From the IMG/VR virus record IMGVR_UViG_3300031539_000091, positions 1-43,537 of that record: a stretch of 43,537 nt of DNA, one strand, 5' to 3'. Positions within the stretch are counted from its first letter, which is position 1; each line of letters opens with the position of its first letter. Source of the stretch: a virus. The notes below the pieces were generated by a model. The model did not search any database. It saw only the letters and a program-made list of their open reading frames with translations, and was not told where the DNA came from. This document shows positions 4,146 through 40,762 of this stretch, piece by piece. Both the position numbers and the translations under genes were made by a program.

Positions 4146-4351
4146 TGTTTGAGTTGGCAATACGGCTCATCACCGTTTGCCGCTTTTTGAATGAGGTAAT
4201 CTATTTCCATTTCTGCTTTGATCCACGTAAGGTCTGCAAGAATTTCGTAGAATAGTTTGTGATTGTTGTTGTTGCTACCGTCGGCGGAACGCTTTTTTAA
4301 AATCAATACTTTCTCGTAAATCGTATCAATTGTGACGTTTGGATGTTCCAT
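4142..4351 (-). CDS. Hypothetical protein, 69 aa
   Basis: The start is placed at MEHPNVTIDTIYEKV (4351), preceded by AAAGGAT 7 nt upstream; an earlier in-frame GTG would fall inside the tmRNA 3' hairpin. The protein is helical and acidic (LADLTWIKAEMEIDYLIQ). No motif recognised. It is the first protein gene after the tmRNA and may share its transcript. Confidence 0.65.
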   Translation of the reverse strand: MEHPNVTIDTIYEKVLILKKRSADGSNNNNHKLFYEILADLTWIKAEMEIDYLIQKAANGDEPYCQLKQ

Positions 4352-4387
4352 TTTCAAATCCTTTGTGGAAGTAATTAATAAAATAAC

Positions 4388-4419
4388 CCTGGTTGTTTTG
4401 TTAACAAGGCACAACCAGG
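4388..4419 (-). other. 3' hairpin of the tmRNA coding piece
   Basis: CCTGGTTGT and ACAACCAGG form a perfect 9-bp stem whose loop holds the self-complementary TTGTTAACAA. It follows the tag stop by 16 nt, where tmRNAs carry helix 5 or a downstream pseudoknot. The following GTTATTTTATT could also act as a weak terminator. Confidence 0.6.
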
Positions 4420-4435
4420 AAATCCCCGTCGAGTA

Positions 4436-4480
4436 TTACGCCGCTAGGCGTAGGTCCTCAAAGTATGCACTATCGTTTGC
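4436..4480 (-). other. tmRNA tag reading frame (14 codons plus stop)
   Basis: GCA AAC GAT AGT GCA at the 5' end and CTA GCG GCG TAA at the 3' end encode ANDSAYFEDLRLAA. The AND start and LAA end match known ssrA tags (E. coli ANDENYALAA) and would present a C-terminal degron to ClpXP-type proteases. Confidence 0.92.
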
Positions 4481-4568
4481 ATTTACGTTTTTTGCTCTGC
4501 TTACGGCAGTCGCCTATCGTGCTGTCCATTTAGTTACTCACCTGTCCTGTCGAAACCTTGTCATCCCC

Positions 4569-4647
4569 AACGAAGCACACTAAGGGATTGCTCTCCTTGT
4601 ATCGCAGTCGTTCCCAAACGCTGCGCCTCTCGGAGTAAATGTGCTTC
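4569..4647 (-). other. Intervening segment of the permuted tmRNA precursor
   Basis: 79 nt separate the acceptor 3' end from the coding 5' end. Its ends are the inverted repeat GAAGCACA / TGTGCTTC (8 bp), nearly continuous with the 7-bp acceptor stem. The precursor would therefore fold as one long helix that is cut on both sides to give two RNAs. Confidence 0.85.
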
Positions 4648-4715
4648 GGTGGAGATGGCGGGAGTCGAACCCGCGTCCAGAACACCTTTTACCTCACTTC
4701 ATACAGCAATAGTAA

Positions 4716-5054
4716 TTATTTATCTCCTTCAGTTTTTCCCATACGTTTATTGTGCCCAAGATCGTGTAAAGCTTTAATCCATTCCCAACCAAACCACCCA
4801 ACAAACACTACGCACATCAATACGAACCCAACAACAAATGATGCAATGAAACTAAAAAATGTTATTGCATACCAAGGGATTGGATTGTTAATATGCCAAA
4901 TTAGGAGACCTATAAACGATACCGCATAACAAAGCCAATATATGATGAATCTAGCATCTTCGTTTCCTTCTGTAAGACGCGAGATTAAATATCCTATAAA
5001 ATATCGCACTATAATTCTTAATCCGGTCCAGAGATTTAAAAAGAATTCTTTCAT
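4716..5054 (-). CDS. Small membrane protein, 112 aa
   Basis: Two hydrophobic stretches are visible: FIIYWLCYAVSFIGLLIW and ITFFSFIASFVVGFVLMCVV. A charged C-terminus (ALHDLGHNKRMGKTEGDK) follows. The start MKEFFLNLW at 5054 overlaps the preceding stop as ATGA. It is the last of five coupled small membrane genes and ends just before the tmRNA. No family recognised. Confidence 0.65.
   Translation of the reverse strand: MKEFFLNLWTGLRIIVRYFIGYLISRLTEGNEDARFIIYWLCYAVSFIGLLIWHINNPIPWYAITFFSFIASFVVGFVLMCVVFVGWFGWEWIKALHDLGHNKRMGKTEGDK
4717..4724 (-). promoter_or_regulatory. T4-type late promoter candidate for the tmRNA
   Basis: GATAAATA on the minus strand, overlapping the stop codon of the upstream gene. 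Late initiation about 6 nt beyond its last A falls at roughly 4711, almost at the expected 5' end of the tmRNA acceptor piece. Confidence 0.45.
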
Positions 5055-9619: not shown

Positions 9620-11563
9620 ATGAAACTAATAAGCTTCTCGCAACCAAACTTCCAACAAGGACCGAAAGAATTTAACGCATACTACCTTCCGTACAGCGCA
9701 GGCGTGCTTTGGTCGTATGTTAAATCGTTCCCACACATCAACGAGAATTACAAATTACTAAATTACATCTGGAAGAGAGACGCACTAGATAAATCCTTAG
9801 ATCTTATTAAGGACAGTGACGTCGCATGTTTCAGTACCTATGTGTGGAACAAAAGCTATAATTACACTTTAGCCAAGAGGATGAAGGACTTAAAACCAGA
9901 ATGTCTTATTGTGTTCGGTGGTCCCGAACCTCCCATTACCGATCCTGAATTTTTCAAAACGTTTCCGTACATTGATATAATGGTAAAGTCGGAAGGTGAG
10001 AAAACATTCCTCAAAATATTAGAGTCTACAAGCTTAGAAGAATTAAGACAGGTACCGGGGTTATTGTTAAACATTGATGGCGAAACGGTTGATACAGGAA
10101 ACCCGGATAGAATTAACAACTTGGAAGAAGTTCCTAGTCCTTATCTAACAGGATTGTTTGACGACTTAATGGCCGCCCACCCAGAAGTAGAGTGGAACAT
10201 GACACTAGAAACAAATAGAGGTTGTCCTTACCAATGTACATTCTGTGACTGGGGTAGTTTAACATATAACAAGGTTAAGAAATTTGAACTTGATCGTGTC
10301 AATGATGAGATCGAATGGGCAGGTAAAAACAAGTGCGGGTTTATTTCCATTACAGATGCAAACTTTGGCATATTCCCGGATAGGGATAATTTGATTGCTG
10401 ATAAGATAATAGAAGTACAGACGAACTATGGTTACCCAAATACGTTTAGCACTGCTTGGGCAAAGAACCAGAAACAAGAAGTGGTGGATATTGTTAAGAA
10501 ACTTATACATTCACCACGTGGATTTAATCAGGGCTTAACACTGTCAGTTCAAAGCTTAGACTTAGACGTTTTAGAGAATATCAAGCGAAAAAACTTAGAA
10601 ATTAGCAAGATCGAAGAAGTTTTTGACATTTGTGATAAAGAAAATATTCCAATCTACACTGAAATTATCCTAGGATTACCGGGAGAAACACTAGCAACTT
10701 GGAAACAAAACTTTTGGAAGCTATTCAATTCTGGAAATCACACCGGAGTAACAGTGTTTCAAGCTCAAATGCTAGAAAATGCGGAGATGAACTTATTACA
10801 GAAGAAACTCTATAAGATCACTGACCAAATGGTTTATGACTATATGAGCGGCAGCTATAACGAGGATGAATTGAAGGAAGGGATCAAAGTTATTACATCA
10901 ACAAAGGATATGTCATTCGACGAGATGCTAGAAGCACAGATCTTTAGCTGGTATATAAACACGTTTCATATAAACGGATTGACTACATACATTAGTAGAT
11001 TTTTAAAGAAGTTTCGCAATATTGAATACTCGGATTTCTACGAAAAGCTGTTTGAATACGTTAAGCAGGATTCATGGATTGCTGAAGAGATAGAAGAAGT
11101 AGGTAGTTACTATCGTCGTTGGATGACCACTGGACAAATTGACCATCCTATTATCGGAAATATAGAAATACATGGATGGAATTTAATCCATAGGTCAGTA
11201 ATACGAATACATGCTGATAACAAATATGATCATATATTTAATATGGTAGAAGACTTTATTAATAAAGAATACGACTTAGATGAAGGTAATTGGGATAGCT
11301 GCCCTGACGACATCCTCGAGCAGTTAATGAAATTTCAGCGCAACTATTTAATCAACTACCACGATATTCCAAACTATCCTAAGGTATTAACATTCGATTA
11401 TGATTTCTTAGGATACTTGCAAGACGATGCTAACATCAGAGATCAAGTGCAGTACACTTTCGACTTCAATGAAGACAAGACAATGAGTTTCCCGCGCTTC
11501 TTGGACAATATCTATTTTTATAGAAGAAGGAACTTTGGGAAAGCTTGGATTACGAAAATTTAA
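9620..11563 (+). CDS. B12-binding-domain radical SAM enzyme, 647 aa
   Basis: The first ~140 residues have a Rossmann-like B12-binding fold (VACFSTYVWNKSYNYTLAK, then VFGGPEPP). The radical SAM cluster motif GCPYQCTFCDWG supplies C202, C206 and C209 for a [4Fe-4S] cluster. SAM-domain features include ITDANFGIF, LSVQSLDLDVL and EIILGLPGET. The C-terminal ~200 residues are unassigned. Family members use SAM and often cobalamin to methylate or rearrange unactivated carbons. The classical DxHxxG cobalamin ligand is not visible, as in BchE-like members. It immediately follows the ADP-ribosyltransferase-like gene. The substrate is unknown. Confidence 0.88.
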   Translation: MKLISFSQPNFQQGPKEFNAYYLPYSAGVLWSYVKSFPHINENYKLLNYIWKRDALDKSLDLIKDSDVACFSTYVWNKSYNYTLAKRMKDLKPECLIVFGGPEPPITDPEFFKTFPYIDIMVKSEGEKTFLKILESTSLEELRQVPGLLLNIDGETVDTGNPDRINNLEEVPSPYLTGLFDDLMAAHPEVEWNMTLETNRGCPYQCTFCDWGSLTYNKVKKFELDRVNDEIEWAGKNKCGFISITDANFGIFPDRDNLIADKIIEVQTNYGYPNTFSTAWAKNQKQEVVDIVKKLIHSPRGFNQGLTLSVQSLDLDVLENIKRKNLEISKIEEVFDICDKENIPIYTEIILGLPGETLATWKQNFWKLFNSGNHTGVTVFQAQMLENAEMNLLQKKLYKITDQMVYDYMSGSYNEDELKEGIKVITSTKDMSFDEMLEAQIFSWYINTFHINGLTTYISRFLKKFRNIEYSDFYEKLFEYVKQDSWIAEEIEEVGSYYRRWMTTGQIDHPIIGNIEIHGWNLIHRSVIRIHADNKYDHIFNMVEDFINKEYDLDEGNWDSCPDDILEQLMKFQRNYLINYHDIPNYPKVLTFDYDFLGYLQDDANIRDQVQYTFDFNEDKTMSFPRFLDNIYFYRRRNFGKAWITKI

Positions 11564-16230: not shown

Positions 16231-16722
16231 CTAAACCTTCACAAACTCAATTTGGATGTTGCTGTTGTGAATGTTAACGGTACGATTCTCTACTAGGTCG
16301 TCAATTAGTACAACCGTACTATCAATAAATTTATTGGAATGTAATTTAATCCAGTCTTCTAAGGAACGGTCCTTGCCCCACATAGGGATAAAATCCCAGG
16401 AGTCAAGTTTACCAATATTAAATCCTTTGATCTTGCACACTGCCTTTATCATTTCGTCCACTGTGGGCACGGCAATAAAATTAAGGTTAAATTCTTCCTC
16501 CAACCAAAATTTCGTTTCGGTATTAAAGATAATGCGATCTGTGTCGTTCCATATAGCAAACGACCACACCGTAGCATCTAGTGGTTCATTGTGATGCGAA
16601 TGTTCGAAGTGTTCGTCTAGTAAATGGAGTACCTTATGCTTGGGACCGAGCGTATTAACGCCCCAAGTCTCAATGAGAGTACTTTCCAGGTCGATGAACA
16701 GATGTTTTTTGACGGTTTCCAT
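16231..16722 (-). CDS. HAD-like phosphatase-fold protein, 163 aa
   Basis: The start METVKKHLFIDLESTLIETW carries a HAD motif I variant D11-L-E13-S-T15 (classic DxDxT, second Asp replaced by Glu). VVLIDDLVENRTV (DD at 141-142) resembles motif IV. WSFAIWND may serve as motif II. HAD proteins are usually phosphatases or nucleotidases. The Glu in motif I could weaken this, so activity is uncertain. The ATG is 6 nt after a perfect TATAAT with no ribosome site; METV is chosen over an upstream in-frame ATG that would overlap the promoter. Confidence 0.7.
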   Translation of the reverse strand: METVKKHLFIDLESTLIETWGVNTLGPKHKVLHLLDEHFEHSHHNEPLDATVWSFAIWNDTDRIIFNTETKFWLEEEFNLNFIAVPTVDEMIKAVCKIKGFNIGKLDSWDFIPMWGKDRSLEDWIKLHSNKFIDSTVVLIDDLVENRTVNIHNSNIQIEFVKV

Positions 16723-16728
16723 TCGACT

Positions 16729-16757
16729 ATTATAGCGAATAGTTGCCAAAGCGTCAA
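16729..16757 (-). promoter_or_regulatory. Sigma-70 promoter, leaderless configuration
   Basis: TTGACG (16757-16752), 17-nt spacer ending CGC, TATAAT (16734-16729), then 6 nt to the ATG at 16722. A recurring-motif copy lies 7 bp upstream of the -35. Confidence 0.85.
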
Positions 16758-16764
16758 TAACTTC

Positions 16765-16777
16765 TAAGTCGTTGATT
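16765..16777 (+). repeat. Recurring motif copy 7 (TAAGTCGTTGATT)
   Basis: Perfect match to the consensus. It sits between the stop of the PP-loop gene (16776) and the -35 box of the HAD-like gene. Confidence 0.65.
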
Positions 16778-17684
16778 AGTTAAAGTATTCTGTATTATGC
16801 TGCGGGCCGTCTAGTTGATAGACGCGCTGGCTTAAAGTATTGTTTACTTTCAAGAGGTTACAGTATTCGTCCAACGGAATTAAAACAATGTTGTCCTTGG
16901 CGTACAGCTTATGCCAAAATGTTAGCTTTTCCGAGCCAGCATACTTAGGAAAATATAATAAGTGGTCCTTCCAAAGATGGGCATATTGCAATGGTTTTAC
17001 ATACACTTCGCAAGCCCACAACGACTTAACTTTTGTACCTTTACGTTGCAATCCGTTGTTGTCTAAATAATTCCAGCTTCTAACCATGCTGCTAAAGAAA
17101 GGGTCGGTTAAGTAACTTAACATCACTTCATTTGTGAATAAGAAATTATAGCTTAGTCTGCCGGTGCCTTCTACTGCTCGCTTTCTACCAATGTCAGGAT
17201 CGAAATAGCTATGTAAGATATAGGGCTTTCCGTCCTTAACACAAAAGTTAGGCTGCGCCAATCCTTGTACTACATTCCTACCCTCAGGAAGCTTACTGCA
17301 AAAATACGCATGAATGGCATGGGCAGGATTAATATCTAGCTCGACGGATAGTTGGTCAACAGCTTTTCTGATCTTAGTTGCATCTTCGGTATAAACAGTT
17401 ACTCTGTTGCCAAACTTCTTCTGCACTGCCCTAACGTTTTCATACTCGTTGTCATTAAAGCCAGGCATGTGGAAAAACACAGACTCGATGCCTATGCCCT
17501 GAGAAAGGAAACTATGTAAAATAACTTGGGAGTCTAGTCCTGCGCTAAGGGCAAGGAGAAGATTACTATCTAATGCATGTAATCTTCTTGCCTCAATCTT
17601 AACTTCTTCTTTTAAACTTCTAACTTCCCTGGAACAACCATTTACTTCTACATAGAATTTGTTATCGTCAAATCCAAATTTCAT
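16776..17684 (-). CDS. PP-loop ATPase, asparagine-synthetase-like, 302 aa
   Basis: SAGLDSQV at 46-53 is a PP-loop variant (SGGxDS), following a strand LLLAL. PP-loop enzymes adenylate a carboxyl or carbonyl group before amidation, thiolation or peptide-like bond formation. VFFHMPGFNDNEYENVRAVQ and FGNRVTVY fit the N-type ATP pyrophosphatase fold of AsnB-like enzymes. The glutaminase domain of true asparagine synthetase is missing, so nitrogen or another nucleophile must come from elsewhere. It overlaps the stop codon of the DctP-like gene upstream by one base. A second PP-loop gene lies at 18649-19914. Confidence 0.75.
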   Translation of the reverse strand: MKFGFDDNKFYVEVNGCSREVRSLKEEVKIEARRLHALDSNLLLALSAGLDSQVILHSFLSQGIGIESVFFHMPGFNDNEYENVRAVQKKFGNRVTVYTEDATKIRKAVDQLSVELDINPAHAIHAYFCSKLPEGRNVVQGLAQPNFCVKDGKPYILHSYFDPDIGRKRAVEGTGRLSYNFLFTNEVMLSYLTDPFFSSMVRSWNYLDNNGLQRKGTKVKSLWACEVYVKPLQYAHLWKDHLLYFPKYAGSEKLTFWHKLYAKDNIVLIPLDEYCNLLKVNNTLSQRVYQLDGPQHNTEYFN

Positions 17685-18625
17685 TACTGAAGTCTAATCT
17701 TAGTAACTAAATCGGTTGAGAAATAATTCTTATATAACTCATAGACCGATTCGGTCATTTGCTTAAATTTTTCAACTTCGGCTTCGGGTAAATCAACAAT
17801 GTCGATATCGTCTTTCTTGCAACGTTCTTGTACTAATAGGATATCTTCAAGGCTAATTGCGCGTTCATATCTAGCTGCGTTTTCTGCGGCTGCTTGGATC
17901 TTATCCTGCTGTTCTTTAGTTAAGTCACCCCAAAAATCGGTGTTGACAATAATTGAAGTAAGGAATAAACTATGCTTGGTGTCGTTAATGTATGCACAGG
18001 CTTCATTCTGCTTTAGTGCATAAAAACGTGGATATGTACTTTCACCACCAGTAATCTCACCTTTCTTAACAGCATAGGTAATCTGCTCTAATTCCATTAC
18101 AACTGGTTCTGCCCCAACTGCTTTTAAAATATCAATAGCAACTGGACTTCTATTAGAGCGAACTTTTAGTCCTTTAAAATCTTCAACAGTTTTAATTTCT
18201 TTAGTAGCCGGGATCATTCTATATCCGCCACTATATGTAAAAGCTAATCCTTTTATGTGGCTGTCCTTGCCAAGACCGTTTAACAATCCTTTACCGATCT
18301 CACCGTCTAAAACTCTTGCAGCGTGTTGGTGGTCTCTAAACAAGAATGGAAGATCCAATACATGCATGTCCTTCGAATATCTTTCACCTAGCCAAACAGT
18401 GTACATCTGGCTCATTTCAATTTCACCCGATTCCATTAAGTCTAATAGATCGTGCTTCGTAACTTGTTTACCGTCGTGGTATTTGTCGCCATACTCACTT
18501 AAGGTCATAATCTCAAATTCCATGACCCCTGGCATCGTTACACTTAGCTCTTCAACAAACTTTAGTGCTGCCCGTAGGAATAATTCAATCGGCTCGTGCG
18601 CCAGCACCCATCTAATTTTTTTCAT
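17684..18625 (-). CDS. TRAP-type solute-binding protein (DctP-like) without signal peptide
   Basis: 313 aa. Strong DctP/TRAP features: DLPFLFRDHQHAARVLDGEI, a turn FTYSGGYRMI, GLKVRSNRSPVAIDILKAVG then EPVVMELEQI, and GGESTYPRFYALK. In the family the Arg in this VR segment contacts the substrate carboxylate. Normal members are exported to the periplasm. This one starts directly at the mature-like MKKIRWVLAHEP, so it should stay cytoplasmic. Lying between two PP-loop genes, it could deliver or sequester a carboxylate for them (inference). Strong ribosome site AGGAGG. AATAAATA lies upstream. Confidence 0.85.
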   Translation of the reverse strand: MKKIRWVLAHEPIELFLRAALKFVEELSVTMPGVMEFEIMTLSEYGDKYHDGKQVTKHDLLDLMESGEIEMSQMYTVWLGERYSKDMHVLDLPFLFRDHQHAARVLDGEIGKGLLNGLGKDSHIKGLAFTYSGGYRMIPATKEIKTVEDFKGLKVRSNRSPVAIDILKAVGAEPVVMELEQITYAVKKGEITGGESTYPRFYALKQNEACAYINDTKHSLFLTSIIVNTDFWGDLTKEQQDKIQAAAENAARYERAISLEDILLVQERCKKDDIDIVDLPEAEVEKFKQMTESVYELYKNYFSTDLVTKIRLQ

Positions 18626-18648
18626 AATGTTTCCTCCTAACTTGTTAG

Positions 18649-19914
18649 TTATTTATTACTCCAGTCAATTTTATAATTTTTTAGTCCTTTTAGAATAAAA
18701 TCACGCACTTCTTCATTGTCTACAGTTAATAATTTAAAATCCGAATCCACCCCAAATATCTTCTCTATCTTCAAGTTTTTAAAGTTCTTCACATACAGGT
18801 TCCTAAGCGACGGAATCTTTAGCTTGTAATTCAACGCCCAACTGTTTTTATCAAAATTGTATATATACTTTCGTGCTGCCCATTTGTACCTAGGCTGCGT
18901 TAACCCATTAAGCTTTTGACCATTGTTGTTATTCACCATGCTCCATTTTTGGTAATCATCGGTACCGAACCAATTAAATACCCGTTCCTTAATTCCTTCT
19001 TTCATCTTATCCTCTGTTCCGTAGTATACAGAGGATCGAATTGCACAATGCATATATTTGATGTTGAAAATCAACCACCAAAAGAAATCGTGTAAACTGT
19101 GCACCGGAACATGACTAGTGTTAATGTTCTTTACAATCTTATCGTAATATAGCCGACCAAACGTTTGGTTGTAGCTAAATTCTTTGTATGCCGACTTGCT
19201 AAAGTAATGCACTAACAAATCTTCATACTTGGAATAATGAACATCTTCGTTTGTGATTCCGTTGTATAAGTGCTTGAGCTTGCTTTTTGCTTCCGGATTC
19301 ATTTCGTTAATTAACTCGTAAAACTTTGAATACATTTTTGTACCGAACTCAGTACCAAATAAACTATCTCCTTGGTCTAGTGTGATAGGAATTGTATCAC
19401 TGCTTTCGTTAATTATGTCGCTGTAAAATGTGGTGTTTGAATCCAACAATGTAAATTTGTCTTTAATATACTTCTCAAAAAACATTGGGTTTTCTATTAG
19501 CGAGTCGTAGCTTAACACCAGGCGCACTGATTTTAGTTCTTTGTCGCTTAGGTTTTTTAGAAGAGAAGTAACACAGACGGTACTATCAATTCCACCCGAA
19601 TAAAATACTACTATATTCTTGCCCTCATTAATTAGCTTCTTCGTCTTTATGCCTGTAAGATCTGTTATCTCACTAAACGATAGATTAAAGTTCTTATCAT
19701 ATGTGGGCATTTCGTAGCCTGGAATTATTGTTGTTGGCCAAGGTAGGCTCCACTCTCCGTCCCTAGGTATTAGCATATTATCGGATATTAACCTAGCAAT
19801 CATAGTGTGGAATTTACCGCCGTCGCTAAAGTCTTTGAAATTTGTTTTTAGAAATTCTTGATGAGGAACCCAACCATAACAAATTGAATGGAAGTATAAC
19901 GGTAGCTTAATCAT
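18649..19914 (-). CDS. PP-loop ATPase, asparagine-synthetase-like, 421 aa
   Basis: IVVFYSGGIDSTVCVTSLLK gives a canonical PP-loop (SGGIDS at 106-111). The N-terminal ~95 residues are not a recognisable glutaminase domain, lacking the Cys2 nucleophile. Later segments (GLTQPRYKWAARKYIYNFDK) parallel the GLAQPNF segment of the 16776 protein, showing the two are related. It overlaps the upstream gene by 8 nt. Probable carboxylate-activating enzyme of an unknown small product or protein modification. Confidence 0.75.
   Translation of the reverse strand: MIKLPLYFHSICYGWVPHQEFLKTNFKDFSDGGKFHTMIARLISDNMLIPRDGEWSLPWPTTIIPGYEMPTYDKNFNLSFSEITDLTGIKTKKLINEGKNIVVFYSGGIDSTVCVTSLLKNLSDKELKSVRLVLSYDSLIENPMFFEKYIKDKFTLLDSNTTFYSDIINESSDTIPITLDQGDSLFGTEFGTKMYSKFYELINEMNPEAKSKLKHLYNGITNEDVHYSKYEDLLVHYFSKSAYKEFSYNQTFGRLYYDKIVKNINTSHVPVHSLHDFFWWLIFNIKYMHCAIRSSVYYGTEDKMKEGIKERVFNWFGTDDYQKWSMVNNNNGQKLNGLTQPRYKWAARKYIYNFDKNSWALNYKLKIPSLRNLYVKNFKNLKIEKIFGVDSDFKLLTVDNEEVRDFILKGLKNYKIDWSNK
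18650..18657 (-). promoter_or_regulatory. T4-type late promoter candidate (AATAAATA)
   Basis: Overlaps the stop of the 18649-19914 gene and precedes the DctP-like gene, followed by an AGGAGG ribosome site and the ATG at 18625. Confidence 0.4.
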
Positions 19915-20608
19915 GGAACAAAAGTTCTGTTAACTTTTCTTTGTATATGTTCATAAAATATGGTTTTGAAGTTGGTCGAGCAAATATGTTTTCGATCTGT
20001 TTAGTTGCTTCGTCGATAGTACTAGAAAGGTATATTATTTTTTCTACCTCAGCCACAAATCCGTTTGGTATTCCTGTTTCGTCCTCATTGTATAGCAGCT
20101 CAACATCAAAGAATTTAGCATAAAACCTATTATCTAAGTTAGTATATAGCCCGTCAATTACGCGCAACGCCTGCACCGTTTTTAAGACAAAGTAGCAATA
20201 CTCCTGCTCCTTAACTAGCTGCTCTAAGTCATCTAACCTGTCAATTGGCGGTCCGACTTTTACAACCTCATGAAGAGTAAGACGTTCTTTTAGTAGAGGC
20301 GTTTGGTTAATGATAGGAAATCCAATATTGCGTTGGATCCCGTAGTTTAGGCAAGAGTGGGTAAAGACCGGAGTCTCATTGTCCATCGGAAAAACTAGAG
20401 ATTGAAACTTAGATGACAAAAGTTTTGCCGCATGTAGCACAGACCAAAGGTCTAAGTCATCAATAAGAATGAATCTTTCTAGGCCAGGAATGAACAGGCC
20501 GAAATTAGATGTTTCTTTGTTTCCGTAGTATTGACTGAAGTGGGCAGGAGGTGGGCGCGCCCACTTACTTCTGGAAATTTGATTAAGGATTGCCTGAGGA
20601 CTCTGCAT
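19907..20608 (-). CDS. Hypothetical partner of the PP-loop cluster, 233 aa
   Basis: Starts MQSPQAILNQISRSKWARPP. Contains ERFILIDDLDLWSVLHAAKL and TLHEVVKVGPPIDRLDDLEQ; mixed alpha/beta. No family recognised. It overlaps the following PP-loop gene by 8 nt, so it is probably a dedicated partner in the same pathway. Confidence 0.65.
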   Translation of the reverse strand: MQSPQAILNQISRSKWARPPPAHFSQYYGNKETSNFGLFIPGLERFILIDDLDLWSVLHAAKLLSSKFQSLVFPMDNETPVFTHSCLNYGIQRNIGFPIINQTPLLKERLTLHEVVKVGPPIDRLDDLEQLVKEQEYCYFVLKTVQALRVIDGLYTNLDNRFYAKFFDVELLYNEDETGIPNGFVAEVEKIIYLSSTIDEATKQIENIFARPTSKPYFMNIYKEKLTELLFHD

Positions 20609-36212: not shown

Positions 36213-36809
36213 TTATTTTCTCCCTACAAGCATATATCTATCGTAAATATTAAGGTTCAAAGTGCCACTGAATAATGTTTTAAGAGGATATTTCAACACC
36301 ATTTCACCAATATTTTTGCAGATATTGACGTGTTCTGGTATTTCTAAGTTGTTACTTTGTAATAGCAGTAACTTACCATGGTCTATTCGCTTAAACCATG
36401 TATCTTCTACAATGTGTTCGCACGACATATTTATAATGATATCGTAGTCGTTAATTTCGATGAAGGAATTAACGTCTTTGAAATGCCTTGTTACATTTTG
36501 TACTAAATTCTGTGAAATTTTGAGGTATTTGGGATTTAAGTCTATTTCAGTTAGATTCGTGTATCCTAATTTTTGCAGGCAAAGGGTTGTAAATCCAGTC
36601 CAGGACCCGATAATTAAAATTTTAGAATCTTTATCATAATCTCCGCATATGAATTCTCTAATCAACCAGGCTTTAGATTTTATTTGATTGGTGTGAAATA
36701 AGTCACGCAATTCAACCACTGTGATATTCCTTAGCGATTCGGCGTTATACAGAGAATCCATAAACTCCGGAATGTGATCGGTTACTACGCGGGCGTTAAA
36801 ATTAGACAT
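36213..36809 (-). CDS. Class I SAM methyltransferase-like protein, 198 aa
   Basis: KILIIGSWTGFTTLCLQKLG is a motif I-like nucleotide loop, followed by NLTEIDLNPKYLKISQNLV with the acidic ribose-binding residue, then YDIIINMSCEHIV. Probably uses SAM; the substrate is unknown. It is last in the 42.0-36.2 kb operon and overlaps the dioxygenase stop by 8 nt. Confidence 0.7.
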   Translation of the reverse strand: MSNFNARVVTDHIPEFMDSLYNAESLRNITVVELRDLFHTNQIKSKAWLIREFICGDYDKDSKILIIGSWTGFTTLCLQKLGYTNLTEIDLNPKYLKISQNLVQNVTRHFKDVNSFIEINDYDIIINMSCEHIVEDTWFKRIDHGKLLLLQSNNLEIPEHVNICKNIGEMVLKYPLKTLFSGTLNLNIYDRYMLVGRK

Positions 36810-37758
36810 CCGTTTCGTTCCAAACTTTAATTGGCCCGGACTGCTTTATTTGCTCCTGTGGACGATCATATGCCCAATCAAAGCTAACTCCATTCTTTAA
36901 TCCGATATGATCTGCAAACCAATCTTGGAACTGTCCGTCTATTCTCAGTACTAGGTGATCGAATTGAGGGTCTGCGCCGTGTAAGTCACATTCATTAAAA
37001 GTGTAACATCTACTTGATGGATTTAGATAATGCCGAATATTCTTAATAGGATCATATATAAAAACATTCCTACTATCTTTACTTAACGAAACATTAAGGT
37101 GATGCATCGAATGATTTCTTAAATAACTATCCCTGTGTATTAACAGCTTAGTATCCTCGTTGGATCTAAAAATAAGCCCAATGCCCATATGCTTAAAGGG
37201 CAATGACTCTGCTAACTGTCGAAGGTATGGAAAGTGTTGAATTATAGGCAACCACGTAGATGGATTGCCCTTTTCGTAAAATGGCAGCGGCGTTCTTAGG
37301 TGTAATACTCTTTTCCAGGACTTGGTTAGACCAAACTTATTTACATAGTATCGCTTCAACGCATGAAAGTTTGTAATCTTTCGTGCAAATGTAAAGTTGT
37401 CATTTTCAATTCCGTACTTTAATGGATTTAATAAGAATGCGTCTAAGCATTTCTCGTCGTTGATTTCCTCAGGAATTAATCCGAATGGAATCATATGCAC
37501 TAAGGACTCTGTTGCTAGTCCTATATTGTTTTGTAATTCTTCTTGTATTTTATCTAGGTTGCTTAGGTCTACAAAGTCGTCTGCTTCTATAAACGGTCTC
37601 CCTTCTTCACCTAGTCCCATTGCAGGAGCATCATAATAATGAAAAGAGTTAGCAATCCTGTTTCTTATAGCTGGACATGGATGAACTATGTTATAGTCAA
37701 TCTTAATCTTAGCCTCGTCTATGTAATCCTCATTTTTACTTTTGAATAGGCCCGTCAT
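36802..37758 (-). CDS. 2OG-Fe(II) dioxygenase-like protein, 318 aa
   Basis: LLIHRDSYLR gives H208-x-D210; ECDLHGADPQ gives H260; VLRIDGQFQDWF gives R272, the expected ligands for Fe(II) and 2-oxoglutarate. The same ...LHG-D/A...LRxDGQ pattern recurs in the 41085-41837 protein, so they are paralogues. The N-terminal ~180 residues are unassigned. It overlaps the GNAT gene by 23 nt. Likely hydroxylates a product of this operon. Confidence 0.75.
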   Translation of the reverse strand: MTGLFKSKNEDYIDEAKIKIDYNIVHPCPAIRNRIANSFHYYDAPAMGLGEEGRPFIEADDFVDLSNLDKIQEELQNNIGLATESLVHMIPFGLIPEEINDEKCLDAFLLNPLKYGIENDNFTFARKITNFHALKRYYVNKFGLTKSWKRVLHLRTPLPFYEKGNPSTWLPIIQHFPYLRQLAESLPFKHMGIGLIFRSNEDTKLLIHRDSYLRNHSMHHLNVSLSKDSRNVFIYDPIKNIRHYLNPSSRCYTFNECDLHGADPQFDHLVLRIDGQFQDWFADHIGLKNGVSFDWAYDRPQEQIKQSGPIKVWNETDV

Positions 37759-38335
37759 AATGTATTTTATCCCAATCGAATTTATAATTCCAGTCTAACG
37801 GTTTATATAAAACATAGTGTTTGGTGTGATTTATATAAACAGGTTTATTGTGCGCAGTTAAGCCTTCATATACATTGTATTTAACTGCTTGGTTGTGTAA
37901 GAACAAATTAAACTTACCTTTTTGCATTACGTTGAAAAGTGATCCACCATTTTCAAAACAAAAGAACATTGCCTTACCGCCGCGCCTTTTAACTTCCTCA
38001 GTTTGTTTTGGTAACATGTACTGACTCATCAATAATTGGTGTTGGTGAGATTTTCTCGTTAATGTCCTAACTCCACAAATGTAAATGTTCTCATCAAAGT
38101 CGGCCTTATTGAAGCCTGACATGTGAGCTAGCTGCTCGTTTTCATAAAGTAAAATGTATGCACCATTATTCTCAGAGAAAATATCTGTATACACTAATTT
38201 GTGAAGAATGCATTTTGGATTGTTACCCCAATCAACGTCGGTGAAGTTTTCCAAGTGTCTATTTTCAGCGCACAAGGAAACAATGTCATTCAAGTCACTA
38301 ATTGTGCAGCGTTCTTTCGTTATTGTTCTAAGCAT
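37736..38335 (-). CDS. GNAT-like acyltransferase, 199 aa
   Basis: The central part fits the GNAT fold: AYILLYENEQLAHMSGFN, then ICGVRTLTRKSHQHQLL in place of the CoA-binding strand and loop, then GGKAMFFCFENGGSLFNVMQ. The usual Q/RxxGxG/A loop is not clear, so acetyl-CoA use is uncertain. It overlaps the radical SAM stop by 16 nt. Confidence 0.6.
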   Translation of the reverse strand: MLRTITKERCTISDLNDIVSLCAENRHLENFTDVDWGNNPKCILHKLVYTDIFSENNGAYILLYENEQLAHMSGFNKADFDENIYICGVRTLTRKSHQHQLLMSQYMLPKQTEEVKRRGGKAMFFCFENGGSLFNVMQKGKFNLFLHNQAVKYNVYEGLTAHNKPVYINHTKHYVLYKPLDWNYKFDWDKIHYDGPIQK

Positions 38336-39819
38336 CGCTTTTTGTACTTATTAAACATTGCTTCTGTTATCGCTTTAATTTTGGATGCATCTCTTTTGTT
38401 GCTTAAATTCTTAACTTCGTCATATGTTAAACCGTATCCCATAAGTGTTACTAGTGAAAAGTTTTGCAAACTTCTATCTGTTTTTGCTGCCTCTATATTA
38501 GCATCAGTTGCTAAACTTTTTACAGCATCGTATGAGGTTACGTTGTTAACCCACTGTGGATTCAATGCATATGATTTTGAATTTTTTATTGTGTAATTAA
38601 ACTTCTTTAAGTCTAAATCAATATCTGTTTTGTACGTTGCTGCACTACCTAATAATGTTAGAGGTTGAAAAATTAGATCGTGTTTGTAAAAGAGGTTAGT
38701 TCCGAATACATACTGACTGGTCCATCTGTCCATTGTCTGTATTGTTTCGCCAGGTAACCCATATATAAACGAACAGGTAACGGAAATCTCGTCTTTCCAT
38801 TTTTGATTCACTAGTTCCATTGCTCGTAATGTCTTATCCGGCGATTGTCCTTTTCCTATATTCTTTTTAGATGTTTCATCTAATGTTTCTATCCCGAAAA
38901 ATGCCCCGCGTAATCCCATCTTCTTTAGTAAATCTATAGTATCCTGATGTGCATACAGTAAGTCTAATCTTATGTATGCTGCAAATTCTATACTAAAGGG
39001 AAGAGAACTAATCATCTCATACAATGCTTCCATTTTAGGAACAGAGTCGTTAAACGTATCGTCACAAAAGATATACTTAGTTGTGCCAAACATATCATAG
39101 TTACGTTCAAGTTCTTCCTTTAAATTGTGTGTAGTTTTAATGAAGCTATTATCTCTGGAAGAACGTCCCTTTAATGGGAACGAACAAAACTTGCATTTAA
39201 AAATACATCCTCTGGAAATTTCCAAGGGCAATGTTTCGCCGTATATAATATTATCCTCATCTTCGAATATTATCTTACTGTCCCTAAATTTAAAATCGGC
39301 ACTAAGAGGATTCGAATAAAAGGGTTTTTTATTAAAGAATTGTTTAGAGAAAATAGGACGTTGTTTGTCTACGTCTTTTACATAGTCAACTAATAAATTG
39401 TCCGCATACCCCTCAACATAAAGGTCAACAAACTCTGGGTCAATATTTTTCTTCCTACACGAAGGCCCACCTAATACTACTTTGAGATTAGGGAATTTTG
39501 TTTTATAGTGACATATAACTGCATTAATGTTTTCTATTGCCCTATTGGGAAAGCATAGCGAATTTTCGTCGTTGGCCGTGCTCCTAGCAGCATAATCAAC
39601 CATAAAGGTAGTCGATATACCTAGCACTAATGTTTTATTATCTATACAACGGTCTAACATTTCTATTAGGGTTTCTTTGCTGTAGTATCCTGCCCCTACA
39701 ACTACTTTAGTCGAATATTGATTTGCCCGTAGCTCTGTTGCTAGTCGATACGGACCTGCATATCTATTAAAAAATTGATTTGACGGCGCTTGCCCTGCTA
39801 TGAGGACTACGCTAGACAT
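38320..39819 (-). CDS. B12-binding-domain radical SAM enzyme, 499 aa
   Basis: The first ~150 residues fit a B12-binding-like Rossmann domain (LVLGISTTFMVDYAARS, LKVVLGGPSCRKK). ISRGCIFKCKFCSFPLKGRS carries C205, C209 and C212 for the [4Fe-4S] cluster. FGIETLDETSKKNIGKGQSP and SFIYGLPGET are typical later SAM motifs. The DxHxxG cobalamin ligand is absent, as in many BchE-like enzymes. It shares an operon with a desaturase, GNAT and two dioxygenases. Second such enzyme here after 9620-11563. Confidence 0.88.
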   Translation of the reverse strand: MSSVVLIAGQAPSNQFFNRYAGPYRLATELRANQYSTKVVVGAGYYSKETLIEMLDRCIDNKTLVLGISTTFMVDYAARSTANDENSLCFPNRAIENINAVICHYKTKFPNLKVVLGGPSCRKKNIDPEFVDLYVEGYADNLLVDYVKDVDKQRPIFSKQFFNKKPFYSNPLSADFKFRDSKIIFEDEDNIIYGETLPLEISRGCIFKCKFCSFPLKGRSSRDNSFIKTTHNLKEELERNYDMFGTTKYIFCDDTFNDSVPKMEALYEMISSLPFSIEFAAYIRLDLLYAHQDTIDLLKKMGLRGAFFGIETLDETSKKNIGKGQSPDKTLRAMELVNQKWKDEISVTCSFIYGLPGETIQTMDRWTSQYVFGTNLFYKHDLIFQPLTLLGSAATYKTDIDLDLKKFNYTIKNSKSYALNPQWVNNVTSYDAVKSLATDANIEAAKTDRSLQNFSLVTLMGYGLTYDEVKNLSNKRDASKIKAITEAMFNKYKKRCLEQ

Positions 39820-40565
39820 TAGCTCTTAACCAATCTGACCAAATACTTGGTGAGATCGATTTCTCTTTTTGTATGTCCAAAGTCGTAATTAGTAGGATTA
39901 GCATGATGGTTGTTATGAAATCCTATGCCCCAAAACAATAAACCAGGAATCCAATAGTTTACGCTGTCGTCCTCAGTCTCAAAATTTCTATATGAGAATG
40001 GCATTGTTCGTAAATGGCAAAACAAGTTAACACAAAATTCTAAATGCATTGTAATAACTTGCGCTACAACTAATGATAAAAACATTGTCGGGCCAATTGC
40101 AGCAGCAATCATCCATGCTGTATAGTTAATTAAAAAATATCTATTGTTTAACCACTGTTGCCAATCGCTTCTCATTAAGTCTGTGATGTATCTGTAACTA
40201 AGGTCCTTGTAATGAATTTTGTTTGGCCAAAGCATATATGCCCACAGCTTACCTTTTTTAGGTGAGTGTGGATCTTTATCTGTGTCTGTATATTTGTGGT
40301 GATATCCTCGATGAATGTTAACCCAAAACATCGGACTACCTTGTACACATATACAAGACACTAACGATAAAACGTTTTCTATTACAGGATGAGTATTAAA
40401 TGCACGATGCGCCAACAGCCGATGCAACGTAACGCCAACACCGAATCCAGATAAAACAATCCAGAATATAACTGTTAGTAGTGGGCTAATATATTCAAAA
40501 TAATAAAGTGCTGTTATAAAGAATGCATGTAGCGGAAGGAACAGTATCCAGAAGTATTTGTTCAT
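39819..40565 (-). CDS. Fatty-acid desaturase (acyl-CoA delta-9 type), 248 aa
   Basis: The three His boxes of membrane desaturases are present: HRLLAH, HRGYHHKYTD and GFHNNHH. Hydrophobic segments lie around them (LTVIFWIVLSGFGVGV, MIAAAIGPTMFLSLVVA). The start MNKYFWILF at 40565 is chosen because it overlaps the upstream stop as TAATG. Inserts a cis double bond into acyl chains using a di-iron centre and an electron donor not found here. It could alter host membranes or act on a lipid-like product of this operon. Confidence 0.9.
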   Translation of the reverse strand: MNKYFWILFLPLHAFFITALYYFEYISPLLTVIFWIVLSGFGVGVTLHRLLAHRAFNTHPVIENVLSLVSCICVQGSPMFWVNIHRGYHHKYTDTDKDPHSPKKGKLWAYMLWPNKIHYKDLSYRYITDLMRSDWQQWLNNRYFLINYTAWMIAAAIGPTMFLSLVVAQVITMHLEFCVNLFCHLRTMPFSYRNFETEDDSVNYWIPGLLFWGIGFHNNHHANPTNYDFGHTKREIDLTKYLVRLVKS

Positions 40566-40762
40566 TAATACGCGAATGCCCATATAATATATATTAAAAT
40601 AATCCATATCAAATATATGCTTGTTAGAACCACGCCAACTATTCTAAACCACATTCGCTCTTTCTTAGATTCTAATCCATAAACTAGAATAAGGACTTCA
40701 TCAATAACTAATATAATAAGTCCAATCACACCACACCACATGAGAAACCCTGGAGTTATCAT
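40565..40762 (-). CDS. Small membrane protein, 65 aa
   Basis: Two membrane spans (FLMWCGVIGLIILVIDEVLI and IVGVVLTSIYLIWIILIY). Couples by ATGA to the gene above and by TAATG to the desaturase below, so it may support that enzyme. No family recognised. Confidence 0.65.
   Translation of the reverse strand: MITPGFLMWCGVIGLIILVIDEVLILVYGLESKKERMWFRIVGVVLTSIYLIWIILIYIIWAFAY

Follow-up and report, generated by a model that had tools for sequence, protein, structure and literature searches.

Gene row and setting

Four genes lie in a row on the minus strand of the 43.5-kb window, by which we mean the whole stretch of DNA analysed, an IMG/VR virus record that carries phage genes such as those for a DNA ligase and an endolysin. 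X233 is followed by PPb421, a DctP-family protein and PPa302, with an overlap of 8 nt between X and PPb, a gap of 23 nt between PPb and DctP and an overlap of 1 nt between DctP and PPa (Table 1). The ORF coordinates bear out the original prediction in placing four genes in one direction, overlapping or close together.

The window also contains a tmRNA gene, found with ARAGORN, whose tag peptide is ANDSAYFEDLRLAA, and encodes a radical SAM protein with a B12-binding domain. Close to the row lies a gene for a protein that is HAD-like by eye and without a Pfam match; it recurs in L107, the closest relative of the window. In the relatives, genes were called with a simple ORF caller on contigs that are mostly fragments, and the related loci are not fully independent of one another.

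Table 1. Positions of the four-gene row and of other features in the window.
Feature	Coordinates	Strand	Description
X233	19907..20608	-	233 aa, partner protein, upstream member of the X-PPb pair
PPb421	18649..19914	-	421 aa, PP-loop synthetase with predicted asparagine/beta-lactam synthetase ligase-half fold, without glutaminase
DctP	17684..18625	-	313 aa, signal-less DctP-family (TRAP solute-binding) protein, PF03480
PPa302	16776..17684	-	302 aa, second PP-loop protein, optional module member
HAD-like protein	16231..16749	-	172 aa
tmRNA	4345..4739	-	
Radical SAM protein	9620..11563		647 aa, B12-binding domain
Accessory gene row	36213..40607		Methyltransferase-like, 2OG-oxygenase-like, GNAT-like, radical SAM and fatty acid desaturase genes

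The X-PPb pair and PPa302

The assignment of PPb421 and PPa302 to the PP-loop proteins is based on motifs and weak profile matches, with the predicted fold backing PPb421 only. PPb421 carries the motifs SGGxDS, D-x-G-D, SLHDFFWW and NNNNG as well as K344, all invariant in 30 sequences; the PP-loop comprises residues 106-111, and the alignment of the synthetase half starts at residue ~61. When the AlphaFold2 model (pLDDT 87) was compared over residues 61-410 with solved structures by VIA-align, Z scores of 13.0, 11.7 and 11.6 were obtained for TsnB9, beta-lactam synthetase and asparagine synthetase, respectively, against lower values of 7.4-8.9 for LarE, GMP synthetase and NAD synthetase. Plain Foldseek scores were weak. 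PPb421 is thereby predicted to adopt the fold of the ligase half of asparagine and beta-lactam synthetases, and since its identity to the matches with Z 11-13 is 8-12%, the model speaks for a shared fold and not for a shared reaction. The likeness to asparagine synthetase B, beta-lactam synthetase and the hydroxyamidotransferase TsnB9 includes SGGxDS and an acidic second motif resembling GD.(L/I)FG. PPb421 differs from these enzymes in its identity of about 10%, in the lack of a PF00733 match and in being paired with X instead of a glutaminase domain. Neither PPb421 (421 aa) nor PPa302 has a glutaminase domain, as had been anticipated for both, and neither matched PF00733 up to E = 1.

The weak matches of the PP-loop proteins were to the QueC-like phrog_1550, DndC, ThiI and LarE. 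Phages often modify their DNA, and the two proteins might on these grounds be nucleotide or tRNA/DNA modification enzymes (QueC-, TilS-, ThiI- or DndC-like), with DctP binding an acidic modification precursor. This explanation is quite improbable: PPb421 is closer to the asparagine/beta-lactam synthetase fold than to those of LarE and the GMP and NAD synthetases, and the profile matches are confined to the PP-loop segment, with no Pfam family over its cut-off. For QueC, DndC and TilS the only matches were partial ones far below the curated cut-offs, and PADLOC gave no defence assignment for the module beyond weak PP-loop matches.

X233 matched no Pfam or NCBIfam family above cut-off, and its PHROGs matches were weak. 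Its AF2 model (pLDDT 84) found nothing above Z 4 in the PDB (Foldseek, VIA-align), and among viral models its matches were uncharacterised phage proteins only. Its position is highly regular: in 42 of 46 distinct loci the gene directly upstream of PPb encodes an X homolog. The four exceptions are L034, where X is three genes off; L043, where the family set includes an X match that the gene caller did not place; L155, of a group whose relative L151 carries a diverged X-like gene; and L148. In the last (L148:6958-8769, minus strand) an in-frame fusion of 603 aa, truncated at its N-terminus where the contig stops, couples the C-terminal portion of an X-like protein to PPb by way of a collagen-like GPTG linker. 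X and PPb are a near-obligate pair.

PPa302, with the motif S[GAS]GLDSQ, belongs to a PP-loop family of its own, whose proteins are about 300 aa long; it has 24 distinct phage members, and about half of their loci also harbour X-PPb. In L107 the HAD-like gene directly follows DctP with no PPa302 between them; PPa302 is thus not obligatory but an optional member of the module.

DctP is likewise variable. In the available sequence it accompanies about half of the PPb loci, those without it including contigs of 100-208 kb, and a number of long contigs with X-PPb or PPa lack it too. The ligase is therefore not dependent on DctP, and X-PPb is best seen as a core to which DctP is accessory. With DctP and PPa302 both variable, as in L107 for the latter, a fixed four-gene unit was ruled out, and this part of the original prediction falls. 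Co-occurrence in other phages, which it had put forward as a check, is supported, with X-PPb as the core. When loci were gathered via DctP alone, a PP-loop gene lay at most three genes away in 43 of 48 non-identical cases, compared with 18% of control genes. After stronger removal of redundancy the same held in 23 of 27 non-redundant loci (85%), where permutation gave an expected mean of 10.9 and a value as high as 23 in none of 2000 rounds, which rules out chance co-location.

The partner varies with the type of phage: PPc3 together with DUF2061 in marine T4-like loci, and PPb or PP10 in freshwater-type loci. The small gene beside DctP was considered as a possible acyl carrier and rejected, as it encodes a DUF2061 membrane protein. 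In the INPHARED phage records there was no homolog of PPa302 or PPb421, and the matches to DctP were distant only.

The variable presence of PPa302 and DctP in a mosaic island could also mean that there is no system, only four unrelated accessory genes in a common permissive insertion region. The adjacency and fusion of X and PPb argue against this, as does the linkage of DctP to PP-loop genes, which is shared by marine T4-like and freshwater phages whose flanking regions differ considerably, and we consider it very improbable.

A solute-binding protein without a signal peptide

The DctP-like protein of the window matches Pfam PF03480 over the full domain (E = 7.5e-49, 167 bits, curated cut-off 23.4), and its best solved-structure matches are TRAP solute-binding proteins. 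Viral relatives were found in 435 IMG/VR stretches and form a group of their own; the best 80 of these show identities of 51-59%, with one at 85%, compared with about 25-31% for the nearest non-viral relatives, which are plasmid-borne bacterial DctP proteins. At 1e-45 the viral clade was not found in 298 phylum-sample genomes other than the centre genome. In the centre genome the DctP match sits ~1 kb from X-PPb genes on one contig, which may for that reason itself be phage. Judged by these sequence comparisons, the protein belongs to a virus-specific clade. A contig of 504 kb filed as a bacterial MAG (JAIELP010000006.1, L065) carries X-PPb-DctP as well and may be a jumbo phage.

The absence of a signal peptide, a central point of the original prediction, is upheld in the window and in the relatives. 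The DctP gene has an AGGAGG site by its ATG and an in-frame stop a few codons upstream, so a longer, exported form cannot be encoded. By a hydropathy measure, as opposed to a trained predictor, none of 119 members of the clade had a hydrophobic, signal-like N-terminus; the TctC proteins of these loci scored signal-like in 43 of 50 cases, which demonstrates that the test works. The N-terminus itself, M-x2-IRWVxAHEP, is a conserved part of the protein in the alignment.

In SiaP, Arg-147 serves as a carboxylate filter and specificity determinant and is present in 96.8% of DctP proteins (PMC4646407). R156 of the window protein, in the motif LKVR, falls in the alignment on the arginine of K-(I/L)-R in solved DctP proteins and is the equivalent of this family carboxylate-binding residue; it is kept in the core DctP clade and missing from some paralogs. 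Against this common ground with TRAP DctP/SiaP stand the missing signal peptide, a diverged N-terminal region, the first ~60 residues aligning poorly with solved DctP proteins, and an arginine of the clade's own, R200, which is invariant there and has no arginine counterpart in the solved proteins shown. The viral proteins are also set apart by usually having no membrane partners and by normally standing beside PP-loop enzymes. Between the window and L107, dN of 0.09 against dS of about 1.4 (dN/dS about 0.07) indicates purifying selection on DctP. In two relatives the DctP gene is found as two overlapping ORFs at the same place (L026:10001-10946 and L027:10001-10943), which could represent separate lobes or a frameshift.

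MqnA, MqnD and Thi5 are periplasmic-binding-protein folds that were recruited to catalysis in the cytoplasm, and the DctP-like protein may similarly be an enzyme that transforms a carboxylate, either ahead of the PP-loop step or following it. Its conserved cytoplasmic location, the strong purifying selection, the pairing with several different PP-loop enzymes and the clade-specific invariant residues, which include W6, H10, P12, R200, H218 and S219, would all suit such a role. The family carboxylate arginine is retained as in plain binders, however, and we know of no catalytic precedent within the DctP family, which leaves an enzymatic function unlikely.

The second point on which a normal transporter had been dismissed was the lack of membrane partners. 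This is true of the window, where no transporter genes were recognised beside DctP in 43.5 kb, but it does not extend to all relatives, as 8 of 45 related contigs encode membrane subunits (DctM in three, TctA in five). The expectation that relatives would have neither signal peptides nor transporter genes thus held for the former and in part failed for the latter. In L165 (6311-10442) and L166 (3680-7808) a complete set of DctQ-like, DctM and signal-bearing DctP genes is directly followed by the signal-less DctP, and in L084 the row X-PPb-TctC-DctP continues with PPc3, a TctB-sized gene, TctA, TctC and DctP. TctC proteins, nearly all with signal peptides, occur in 17 of 46 PPb loci. They belong to a family separate from DctP, and neither TctC nor TctA was recognised in the window, although exported TctC-like proteins, sometimes with TctA, are found inside the same phage islands. 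In marine T4-like phages a DctM-like permease (~450 aa) stands beside a signal-bearing binding protein whose sequence suggests the TAXI type, both next to virion genes (L004:4319-6584 and L010:8296-10543).

In view of these occurrences the module may be linked to carboxylate uptake. On a rival reading it would serve carboxylate uptake and feeding; a tripartite transporter would then have DctP as its sensor, regulator or sink in the cytoplasm, with the PP-loop enzymes as unrelated neighbours. The L165/L166 and L084 rows, the marine TAXI-like and DctM-like genes and the frequent TctC are in line with this; the rarity of membrane subunits when set beside PP-loop neighbours in 85% of non-redundant loci, and an identity of merely 22% between the exported DctP of L165 and the window DctP, make it decidedly unlikely. 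The signal-less DctP is not a periplasmic protein in disguise, yet it keeps company with carboxylate uptake, and this company agrees with a cytoplasmic step that follows import.

A candidate route from imported acid to amide

The reading we prefer, with a probability of roughly 0.4, is that DctP captures an organic acid in the cytoplasm, which X-PPb activates for amide formation. X233 and PPb421 would act jointly as an ATP-dependent amide ligase, PPb421 adenylating a carboxylate, as asparagine and beta-lactam synthetases do with their C-terminal halves, and passing it to ammonia or an amine, with X as a near-obligate partner in place of the missing glutaminase domain. The predicted fold and the motifs suggest the adenylation and amide chemistry, and the role of X and the hand-over by DctP are likewise inferred. 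In the cytoplasm the signal-less DctP would close on the carboxylate by means of the family arginine and the second, clade-specific arginine, and hold or present it for the PP-loop enzyme. The acid may enter through tripartite carboxylate transporters, either those of the host or, where a relative encodes them, DctQM, TctA or TctC of the phage, and PPa302 would be an extra, interchangeable PP-loop tailoring enzyme. Co-occurrence, the absent signal, the synthetase fold without glutaminase and the kept arginine all fit carboxylate activation with a DctP-held acid, as was originally suggested with a protein, nucleotide or lipid as the putative target of attachment, though not as the work of a fixed four-gene system and with the link to uptake remaining. 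DctP is found with further PP-loop families as well (PPc3 and PP10), which counts against this reading.

The pair is embedded in a wider set of genes. Around X-PPb-DctP, PP8 and PP10 PP-loop proteins recur together with GNAT acetyltransferases, a fatty acid desaturase, radical SAM proteins, Rieske oxygenase, acyl-CoA ligase, SDR, BKACE, ATP-grasp and 2-oxoglutarate-type oxygenases, where the names acyl-CoA ligase, SDR, BKACE and 2-oxoglutarate-type oxygenase were read from the sequence and not from a domain scan. The families of the accessory gene row in the window (Table 1) recur near X-PPb in other phages. This recurrence suggests that the island may encode a phage biosynthetic or tailoring pathway. 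Desaturases encoded by Lake Baikal viruses have been described as phage auxiliary metabolic genes (PMC7678222). The island resembles such genes in bringing host-like metabolic functions into aquatic phages, and differs from them in being multi-gene and phage-specific, with no recognised host pathway.

It is possible, if doubtful, that large aquatic phages run a small-molecule biosynthesis of their own, in which several PP-loop amide ligases, a DctP channelling imported acid and tailoring by desaturase, radical SAM, acyltransferase and oxygenase enzymes would yield a new metabolite or conjugate without NRPS or PKS. The module was not described in the literature searched on phage DctP/TRAP, phage PP-loop clusters, phage TctC and signal-less solute-binding proteins, and a virus-specific clade of a solute-binding protein relocated to the cytoplasm and linked to ligases of a carboxylate-activating type had no counterpart there. 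The module offers a concrete lead, open to testing, towards a new phage metabolite or modification. Since it is found widely among marine and freshwater phages, its chemistry would be relevant to the use that phages make of host organic acids.
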